Positions 37,811-40,693 of a DNA stretch of 45,229 bases are shown here, in pieces; the first letter of the stretch is position 1, and each line of letters opens with the position of its first letter. Below the pieces are notes generated by a model that saw nothing but the letters and a program-made list of their open reading frames with translations, was not told the DNA's origin and ran no database searches. Origin of the DNA: Treponema sp. (GTDB lineage Bacteria > Spirochaetota > Spirochaetia > Treponematales > Treponemataceae); NCBI GenBank assembly GCA_024687165.1, contig JAILEY010000068.1, positions 1-45,229 of the forward strand, read 5' to 3'. The position numbers were made by a program, and so were the translations under genes.

Positions 37811-38824
37811 TTATTCATACTCATTCATGAACAGACCGTTCTTCATGATTACAGAATACAAAAAGAGCTGCATGTATGTGTCTTCAAAGGCAGTTCCTGT
37901 TTCGCGGATTTTAATATCTGTGTTTGCAAGGAGCGCCAGAATTGAAGAGGTTGCACCTGTTGTCCAGACTTTTGATGCCGCAAGATATTTTTCCTGCTGT
38001 TTTTTACTTCCAAAGCCTGCGCTCTTCAACTGAACGTCTGTAGGCTTTACACCGCCTGCATACAACTCATGAAAATTTTTAAGCTGTCTGAAGCAGTATG
38101 TAAGACCTGCAATCAGAGCTACAGCAGAAGAACTTTTCTGACTGGAAATTTTCTGAAGGATTTCAAGAGAAGATTCAAAGCGCTGACTCTGACTTCTTCC
38201 GCTTTCTGCCATTGCATCAAAAAGAGTAAAAGCATTCTCTTCCCTGTTATGCGAAAGAATTTTATCGACATCAGATTCAGAAATTACATGACCTTTTTCA
38301 AAGCAGAAGAAAAATCTGGAACACTCATTTTTTAAAGCTTCCGTATTATTTTCTACCATATCAAGAATCTGAACAACGGCTTCATCAGTAACAGAAAATC
38401 CGTTTTTCTTAAAAAAAGATTTTACCCAGTCCTCTTTTCTATTTTCAAACATCTCCCAGAAAATCTTCTTTTTACTTGAAGGAATTGCATTTTCAATTTT
38501 CTTGGAGATACTGTTTTCTTCGGACAAAAGCACAAGAGTATTAGGACTATCGCTTCCACTTTTAATCCATGAAACAAGAGAACTTATTTCCGCTTCCGTC
38601 TTAATATTTTCAGCATTCCGTAAAGTGATAAAAAGAGCCGGAGAAAAAAGACTTGCATTCTGCATCTGCGCAACAACGTCTTCAATTCTTACGTCCGCAG
38701 TGTAATACTTATATTCTTCTATATCACCGTACTTTTTCTTTGCTGCGGCTTTAATATTTGAGACAGCTTCATTTTTTTCACCGATTTCCGGACCTGTAAA
38801 AAGATAGACTTCTGTTTCTGCCAT
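37811..38824 (-). CDS. holA: DNA polymerase III delta subunit
   Basis: HolA opens the sliding clamp within the clamp-loader complex. The protein (337 aa, normal length) starts VYLFTGPEIGEKNEAV, where the ATP site is worn, as is usual for delta. It then has the characteristic VVAQMQNASLFSPALFITLR and a helical C-terminal collar domain (ENAFTLFDAMAESG ... GLTYCFRQLKN). Similarity is of the low level normal for HolA, so the call rests on the overall pattern. It begins 3 nt after the LexA-like gene and has no Shine-Dalgarno, so translation is probably coupled. Confidence 0.85.
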   Translation of the reverse strand: MAETEVYLFTGPEIGEKNEAVSNIKAAAKKKYGDIEEYKYYTADVRIEDVVAQMQNASLFSPALFITLRNAENIKTEAEISSLVSWIKSGSDSPNTLVLLSEENSISKKIENAIPSSKKKIFWEMFENRKEDWVKSFFKKNGFSVTDEAVVQILDMVENNTEALKNECSRFFFCFEKGHVISESDVDKILSHNREENAFTLFDAMAESGRSQSQRFESSLEILQKISSQKSSSAVALIAGLTYCFRQLKNFHELYAGGVKPTDVQLKSAGFGSKKQQEKYLAASKVWTTGATSSILALLANTDIKIRETGTAFEDTYMQLFLYSVIMKNGLFMNEYE

Positions 38825-38827
38825 TTT

Positions 38828-39376
38828 TTAATATGCGCGAACAAGGCCCTTCATTATCCCGGCAGATTTTTCACCTGCAGAATAATTTTTTACAACAAGA
38901 ACATTACCGTTTACAACTGCAGAAATCTGACCTTCTGCAACAGAATCTGTAAACTCAAAAATTACAAAATCACCCTCAAGAATTCCGCTGTCTTTTAATG
39001 CAGCATCAGTTTTAACGGCAAAAAAAGATTTTCCCTGACAAACTACCGGCTCTGAAAGAATCAGATATGAGGAAGCATTTTCTTCACAGATCAAAGGTTT
39101 ATTTTCATCAAACTTGCTGATTACAGGAACTCTCATGGAAAAAGTTTTTGCAGATGATGAACCGTCAAACTTTAATACACGGATTGAACGGGATCTCTTC
39201 TGACACTGAGACAAATAACCTTTTTTCTGACATGCTGCAATATGATCCTGAACTGCACGAAGACTTATACTGAAATTTTCGCCAATCTCACGAACTGTTG
39301 GAGGAAATCCATTTTCATCAGTATATCTGGTAATAAAATCCAGAACCTCACGCTGACGATCTGTTAAAGCTTTCAT
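38828..39376 (-). CDS. LexA-like repressor without a working protease domain
   Basis: Residues 1-68 form a normal LexA DNA-binding domain (LTDRQREVLDFITRYTDENG, FPPTVREIGENFSISLRAVQ, RSRSIRVL). The C-terminal domain aligns with LexA but lacks what autocleavage needs. The Ala-Gly cleavage site is Glu91-Asn92 (KFDENKP where E. coli has RVAAGEP). The catalytic Ser is Ala126 (KTDAALKD against SGMSMKD). Lys163 (LVVKNY) remains. The last strands, including the PENPEY-type segment, are missing (182 aa against about 200). It should bind DNA but not be inactivated by RecA-stimulated self-cleavage. AGAGGAG before the ATG overlaps the ptsH stop. Neighbours are ptsH and holA. Confidence 0.85.
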   Translation of the reverse strand: MKALTDRQREVLDFITRYTDENGFPPTVREIGENFSISLRAVQDHIAACQKKGYLSQCQKRSRSIRVLKFDGSSSAKTFSMRVPVISKFDENKPLICEENASSYLILSEPVVCQGKSFFAVKTDAALKDSGILEGDFVIFEFTDSVAEGQISAVVNGNVLVVKNYSAGEKSAGIMKGLVRAY

Positions 39377-39379
39377 GAA

Positions 39380-39646
39380 TTACTCCTCTTCGAATTTAGA
39401 TTCAAACAGATTGTAAATTGCTTCTGCAGCTTCTGTTTCATCAGCTCCTTCTACTTTAAGAGTAATAACTGTATTGTATCCTGCAGCCATTGTAATTACA
39501 CCCATGATTGATTTTGCATTTACTGTTGCAGATTCACGTTCAAGAATGATTTCTGAAGAATACTTGTTTGCAGTCTGCGCAATGAGTGCTGCCGGGCGGG
39601 CATGAATACCAGCTCTGTTTCTAACTGTTACTAATTTTTCTACCAT
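39380..39646 (-). CDS. ptsH: Phosphocarrier protein HPr
   Basis: The protein has 88 residues with the active-site His15 (RAGIHARPAA) and regulatory Ser46 (NAKSIMGVI), the residue that HPr kinase phosphorylates. No enzyme I or sugar permease gene is in the window. In treponemes HPr is often thought to be mainly regulatory, which fits its place 22 nt after hprK. AAGGAA precedes the ATG. Confidence 0.96.
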   Translation of the reverse strand: MVEKLVTVRNRAGIHARPAALIAQTANKYSSEIILERESATVNAKSIMGVITMAAGYNTVITLKVEGADETEAAEAIYNLFESKFEEE

Positions 39647-39668: not shown

Positions 39669-40658
39669 TTAAATTATATCTTCTGTTCCAAAGTATGCAC
39701 GCTGAGCAACACCGCTTTCAATCCATCTGAGAATATTCTGATTGAACTCTTTTGCAGAATAATATCCCATGGACTTAAGGCGCTCGTTCATAGCAGCAGC
39801 TTCAATAATAATCGGCAGGTTTCTTCCCGGACGAACTGGAATTTCTATAAGCGGAATTTTTACTCCAAGAAGATCCGTAGTCTGACCTTCAGTTCCAATT
39901 CTGTCGTAAACCTTATTCTGATCCCAGGCCGCAAGCTTTACAACCATCTGAACTTCCTTCTGTTCACGAATGGCACCAACTCCATAAAGCTGTGAAATAT
40001 TGATAATACCCAATCCGCGGATTTCCATGTGATGCGAAATAAATTTATTTGCTCCCTGACCAAGAATTGAGTTTCCGTTTACACAGCGGATTTCTACAAT
40101 ATCATCTGCAACAAGACGATGACCGCGTTCAATAAGTTCAAGAGCCGTTTCACTTTTACCAACGCCGGAATCCCCGGTCAAAAGAATTCCAACACCGTAT
40201 ACTTCTACAAATACACCATGAAGAGTTTTCTTTGGTGCAAACAAATCAGAAAAGACTCGCAAAAGACGCTGAGTAAATTCAGTGGTAACAAGATCTGTAG
40301 TCAAAACAGGACAACCTGCAGCTTCCGCAAGAGTCATAAAAATTTCAGAAGGCTGAATCCCGTTTGAAAAAACAGCACACGGAATGTCATACGAAAAAAA
40401 AGTTTTAATCAGATCATAAAGGCCTTCATCTTCAATCTTCTTTAAAAATGCAGATTCACCGCGCCCAAAAAGTTGAACACGTTCACTTGCAAAAGATTCA
40501 TAAAATCCGGAAAGAGCAAGACCTGGTCTGTTAATATCAGTAACAGTAAGCTCATGGGACAAACCGCTTCTTCCTGCGATACAACGCATATTTAGAGAGT
40601 TATGGCCCTGAAGATCAAGATCAAGAAGATCCAGTACTGTAATTTTTTTCTCAGACAT
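39669..40658 (-). CDS. hprK: HPr kinase/phosphorylase
   Basis: HprK phosphorylates or dephosphorylates Ser46 of HPr in response to ATP, pyrophosphate and glycolytic intermediates. From ATG 40658 it has 329 residues. The N-terminal domain (about 1-130) is followed by the kinase domain with Walker A GDSGVGKSETALELIERGH and the family signature MEIRGLGIINISQLYGVGAI. An in-frame start at 40673 is possible, but TATACT lies 6 nt before 40658 and the protein aligns from MSEKKITVLDLL. First gene of hprK-ptsH-lexA-like-holA. Confidence 0.95.
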   Translation of the reverse strand: MSEKKITVLDLLDLDLQGHNSLNMRCIAGRSGLSHELTVTDINRPGLALSGFYESFASERVQLFGRGESAFLKKIEDEGLYDLIKTFFSYDIPCAVFSNGIQPSEIFMTLAEAAGCPVLTTDLVTTEFTQRLLRVFSDLFAPKKTLHGVFVEVYGVGILLTGDSGVGKSETALELIERGHRLVADDIVEIRCVNGNSILGQGANKFISHHMEIRGLGIINISQLYGVGAIREQKEVQMVVKLAAWDQNKVYDRIGTEGQTTDLLGVKIPLIEIPVRPGRNLPIIIEAAAMNERLKSMGYYSAKEFNQNILRWIESGVAQRAYFGTEDII

Positions 40659-40664
40659 ATGAAT

Positions 40665-40693
40665 AGTATACATTATTTAATGTTCCTGTACAA
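40665..40693 (-). promoter_or_regulatory. Putative leaderless promoter of the hprK operon
   Basis: Minus strand: TATACT (40665-40670) ends 6 nt before the ATG at 40658. The -35 candidate TTGTAC (40688-40693) at 17 bp is weak. Confidence 0.5.

Follow-up and report, generated by a model that had tools for sequence, protein, structure and literature searches.

The lexA gene of the window (the whole analysed stretch of 45,229 nucleotides from Treponema sp., contig JAILEY010000068.1 of assembly GCA_024687165.1) encodes a LexA orthologue that has probably been turned into a repressor blind to DNA damage, a natural equivalent of the Ind- mutants (probability of about 0.7). Its winged helix would still bind the old operators, and its C-terminal half would still fold and probably dimerise the protein. 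As cleavable bond and nucleophile are both missing, RecA filaments could not trigger self-cutting. Repression would then not be released by DNA damage, and its level would be set by the amount of protein or by another control. At least four further lineages of the genus would have undergone this conversion independently, and still others have dropped the gene. Because conversion and gene loss are both repeated, selection on induction through LexA seems to be weak or variable in this genus.

The SOS switch tends to be regarded as either conserved or just absent. In this genus, lexA occurs in three states within one operon slot: (i) cleavable, (ii) non-cleavable but selected and (iii) deleted. 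What is new is that self-cleavage was lost repeatedly and independently in a single genus while selection on DNA binding continued. We consider it fairly likely that LexA has become damage-blind several times independently in this single genus of host-associated treponemes, its DNA binding remaining under selection, and that it lives on as a repressor with a housekeeping role or under a different control while full deletion goes on in parallel. It is now possible to ask why a repressor that DNA damage cannot release is kept, and how this affects mutation rates and stress responses in such gut spirochaetes. These data also caution against inferring an SOS response from a LexA annotation.

The gene and the parts that matter for its function are located as follows in the window.

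38828..39376, minus strand: lexA orthologue, peptidase-dead, 182 aa (open reading frame; Pfam and TIGR00498 scores)
39173..39376, minus strand: winged-helix DNA-binding half, residues 1-68 (78-88% identity to intact sister-clade copies; superposes on 1lea)
39101..39106, minus strand: Glu91-Asn92, where intact copies have the Ala-Gly cleavage bond (alignment of 177 orthologues)
38999..39001, minus strand: Ala126, replacing the catalytic Ser (alignment; the single Ser-to-Ala copy among 177)
38888..38890, minus strand: Lys163, the retained catalytic Lys (alignment)
38882..38887, minus strand: junction of an in-frame deletion of about 20 residues after Lys163 (about residues 164-165; alignment with orthologues)
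38831..38866, minus strand: last C-terminal strand, kept, residues 171-182 (alignment; predicted strand 171-179)

The reading frame runs on the minus strand from an ATG at 39376 to a stop at 38828. The LexA DNA-binding domain (LexA_DNA_bind, PF01726) scores 67.8 bits against a cut-off of 23.7, which bears out the earlier note's description of this half as standard. The Peptidase_S24 match (PF00717, 19.9 bits) lies under its curated cut-off of 23.3, and the whole-protein equivalog model TIGR00498 is narrowly missed (108.4 bits against 110.95). Orthology is established by position and phylogeny, the gene occupying the same operon slot as the intact LexA of the genus and matching the orthologues over its whole length; since this match has an E-value of about 1e-59, the alignment is not due to chance. 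The substitutions at the bond and at the Ser, as well as the conservation of the Lys, fall where they had been placed from the sequence of the window alone, and no other Ser stands in register with the catalytic one. The C-terminal strands had been thought to be missing. Instead, the alignment reveals the internal deletion, which accounts for the length of 182 aa against about 201-211 aa in relatives, and the final strand is present (GIMKGLVRAY, aligned with GIMVGLVRTY in orthologues). Bond and Ser are thus both lost beside an intact DNA-binding domain, as in the non-cleavable LexA of the Synechocystis type. Since the bond and the nucleophile are gone together, we infer that the protein is not cleaved.

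A LexA-type DNA-binding domain occurs once in the whole assembly (2.38 Mb, 97% complete), in the window copy. The only other S24-type match is partial (46 positions) and lies in a frame of 179 aa that does not resemble LexA-type repressors and possibly encodes a signal peptidase. Therefore, the second, intact LexA that the earlier note proposed to search for is not present in this assembly, and no such copy stands in for the altered one.

An AlphaFold2 model built from 44 orthologues has a mean pLDDT of 89, and the strand at 171-179 is confidently modelled. Its DNA-binding half superposes on the DNA-binding domain of E. coli LexA (1lea) with an rmsd of 1.4 over 71 residues, and its C-terminal half has the LexA fold (Z of 11.9 and rmsd of 2.3 over 98 residues against 8b0v). 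Full-length fits to solved LexA structures give a large rmsd, most likely from a differing hinge between the halves. The solved S119A and G85D structures of LexA are among the top fold matches of the model.

A LexA match was found in 177 of the 200 genomes of the genus that were surveyed. The copies nearest to that of the window are labelled as Treponema or as another spirochaete, any stated source being a gut or faecal sample, and the eight closest (G021, G179, G222, G137, G031, G027, G151 and G153; up to 58% identity) all carry the Ala-Gly bond, the Ser and the Lys. The loss is therefore confined to the window lineage and is not the clade trait that had been envisaged; even so, losses of this kind arose at least five times within the genus. 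We consequently dropped both the idea of a clade trait and that of a change unique to the window genome. Site, Ser and Lys are all intact in 150 of the 177 orthologues, and at least one of them is lost in the alignment of the other 27. Among these degenerate copies, the Ala-Gly bond is lost in 18 and kept in nine, the Lys is lost in 24 (23 to Arg and one to Ala) and the Ser in four (Ala in the window, Thr in three). The nine copies that keep Ala-Gly have Arg in place of Lys, one of them with Thr in place of Ser as well; such a Lys-to-Arg form may retain slow cleavage. All 20 outgroup genomes examined, from other families of the order, have an intact LexA with holA at the same locus, hence the loss is derived.

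To count the events, we used a phylogeny built from the adjacent HprK, HPr and HolA of 96 genomes, taken from the same loci; this presupposes joint inheritance of the operon genes. A tree of LexA only, in which most degenerate copies grouped together, was set aside as it probably reflects long-branch attraction. On the tree of neighbouring genes, seven changes are needed (the window; G090; G001 with G174; a clade of 18 members; G194; G013; G125 with G202), and at least five of them are forced by well supported branches. Parts of the LexA self-cleavage machinery have thus, as read from these alignments and this tree, been lost at least five times independently in one genus. This recurrence also bears on the quality of the data. 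The species is known from a single assembly, so that a sequencing or assembly error could be suspected. However, none of the changes disrupts the frame, start and end of the gene agree with those of relatives and holA starts 3 bases past the stop; several separate residues and a deletion would all have to be wrong, and like changes are found in 26 other genomes. An error is thus extremely improbable.

The two halves of the protein have had different fates. Among representatives, the mean identity of intact and degenerate copies is 0.67 and 0.65, respectively, for residues 1-36, and 0.83 and 0.84 for the recognition helix. Corresponding values are 0.87 and 0.19 for the cleavage loop, 0.83 and 0.32 for the Ser region, 0.85 and 0.32 for the Lys region, about 0.8 and 0.38 for the remaining core and 0.78 and 0.40 for the last strand. 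The ratio of C-terminal to N-terminal nonsynonymous rates is 0.69 in 53 disjoint intact pairs and has a median of 3.4 (range 1.9-16) in eight disjoint degenerate pairs (Mann-Whitney p about 1e-8, a value that overstates independence since six of the eight pairs come from one clade). The median N-terminal dN/dS is not raised in degenerate pairs (0.038 versus 0.094 in intact ones), whereas the C-terminal dN/dS goes from 0.06 to 0.22, still well under 1. For the window lineage, which is one draft assembly and the single genome of its species, the halves were compared against the sister clade. Identity to the sisters is 39-43% for the C-terminal half (80-90% among sisters) and 78-88% for the N-terminal half (85-97% among sisters); the rate ratio of 2.5-3.6 is moderately above the sister clade's own 0.85-2.2. 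Judging from these rates, DNA binding has been maintained by selection and so, less strictly, has a folded C-terminal half, whereas the peptidase has not. This conservation is also what points to DNA binding by the window protein.

Such a gene could simply be in decay, control by LexA no longer mattering and the copy, devoid of present function, heading to deletion. The relaxed C-terminal half would fit this, as would the clean loss of lexA between ptsH and holA in other members of the genus. When 11 genomes without a LexA match were checked, holA was recovered in eight, and in all eight hprK, ptsH and holA are adjacent without lexA. Genomes lacking lexA are scattered over several places of the tree, some beside degenerate and some beside intact copies; for instance, G019 and G127 adjoin the lexA-keeping relatives G132 and G008. 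RecA was found in all 30 genomes tested, all of which carry lexA, and it is present in the window genome. Against decay, the DNA-binding half of degenerate pairs is under strong purifying selection at a synonymous divergence of about 1, its recognition helix equals that of intact copies in conservation, all 27 degenerate frames are open and no internal stop occurs in those lexA copies of the genus that were listed as matches. We therefore regard decay without function as unlikely, and the proposal of the earlier note that a change of function, not random decay, is at work agrees with these rates.

A change of function could also mean that the dead peptidase half has become the sensor of another signal (ligand, phosphorylation or redox) and that the protein governs a new regulon, as proposed for Synechocystis, where phosphorylation-linked control of LexA has been suggested (PMC7567884). 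Selection on the DNA-binding half and the remaining constraint on the C-terminal half (dN/dS of about 0.1-0.3) are compatible with this. However, the degenerate C-terminal halves share no new motif by eye and have a mutual identity of about 0.3-0.4, so that a scaffold fits better than a common new sensor. A re-purposed regulator thus seems rather doubtful, and the data neither demonstrate nor require the other inducing signal that had been thought necessary.

The LexA of Synechocystis sp. PCC 6803 is the closest precedent for a damage-blind repressor: it lacks the Ala-Gly bond and the Ser of the dyad, keeps the LexA architecture and still represses without cleavage (PMC7567884). It belongs to another phylum and therefore represents an independent event. 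Its regulon has been studied, whereas here at least five losses and several gene deletions are found in one genus, and the window protein also has the internal deletion of 20 residues. The same positions as in the treponeme copies are affected in the LexA(Ind-) laboratory mutants of E. coli (S119A, K156A/K156R and G85D), and the K156R form has been called uncleavable (PMC5760743). These mutants are engineered and induction-defective, whereas the treponeme forms are natural and long-lived. LexA1 and LexA2 of Leptospira, a distantly related spirochaete whose SOS box is known, are also spirochaete LexA proteins, and LexA2 is described with both Ser and Lys kept (PMC3789691). In the openly licensed literature, we found no paper treating LexA in Treponema and no report of repeated loss of LexA self-cleavage within one genus; such a report may exist elsewhere. 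Searches of phage and defence libraries returned only weak, distant LexA or HTH matches.

The gene lies in the order hprK-ptsH-lexA-holA, as the earlier note had read it, 3 bases away from both ptsH and holA, with the following neighbours.

37811..38824, minus strand: holA, DNA polymerase III delta subunit (TIGR01128, 162 bits)
39380..39646, minus strand: ptsH, HPr (PTS-HPr, 99 bits)
39669..40673, minus strand: hprK, HPr kinase/phosphorylase (TIGR00679, 362 bits)

This location between ptsH and holA had raised the idea that LexA ties carbon state (HPr/HprK) to replication or repair. However, relatives with a cleavable LexA have the same order, and hprK, ptsH and holA stay together where lexA is gone. 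Furthermore, the linkage of holA to an intact lexA is order-wide, and in several families no hprK-ptsH was found beside it. Since cleavable LexA occupies the same slot, the operon position has no special meaning for the non-cleavable form, and a carbon link through the window protein is very improbable. In the window (40670-40690, minus strand) as upstream of hprK in relatives, the hprK start lies about 7-12 bases after a conserved extended -10-like element (TGTATACTA / TGTGTATAGTA), which suggests a putatively leaderless hprK transcript across the genus.

The operator shared by recA and related genes that the earlier note proposed to look for did not emerge: no LexA-box candidate was found upstream of recA (about 28 genomes), DinB, UmuC-like polymerases or hprK when these regions were compared and their dyads counted against shuffles, the output consisting only of A/T-rich or clade-local repeats. 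Inspection by eye revealed no feature of the hprK promoter that varies with the state of LexA. DinB provided no operator because in most genomes at least one other gene separates it from a promoter.

Several observations were made along these loci. Hairpin-like inverted repeats are present in the recA leader of L093 (G137), L096 (G027) and L102 (G031), for instance GAGCC...GGGCACGGTGTGCCC...GGCTC in G137. UmuC-like polymerase genes in L143 and L144 (G015 and G060) lie directly downstream of another coding sequence, whose end in G060 resembles by eye the C-terminus of an S24-type repressor; the two genes of G060 are possibly an HdiR-like pair. In about 11 relatives, DinB (Pol IV) continues in frame and without a stop into a part of about 1600 residues, in these run-on frames:

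L329:551-6529: DinB run-on frame (G004)
L331:1598-7516, minus strand: DinB run-on frame (G018)
L106, L108, L117, L119, L121, L122, L126, L131 and L132: further DinB run-on frames

Two of these extensions were read and have a signal-peptide-like start and an outer-membrane beta-barrel-like end; no Pfam match beyond the polymerase domains was found in the extension. Such a frame may be a fusion or may hold two genes in one frame without a stop. The DinB of the window genome is plain, with 394 aa.
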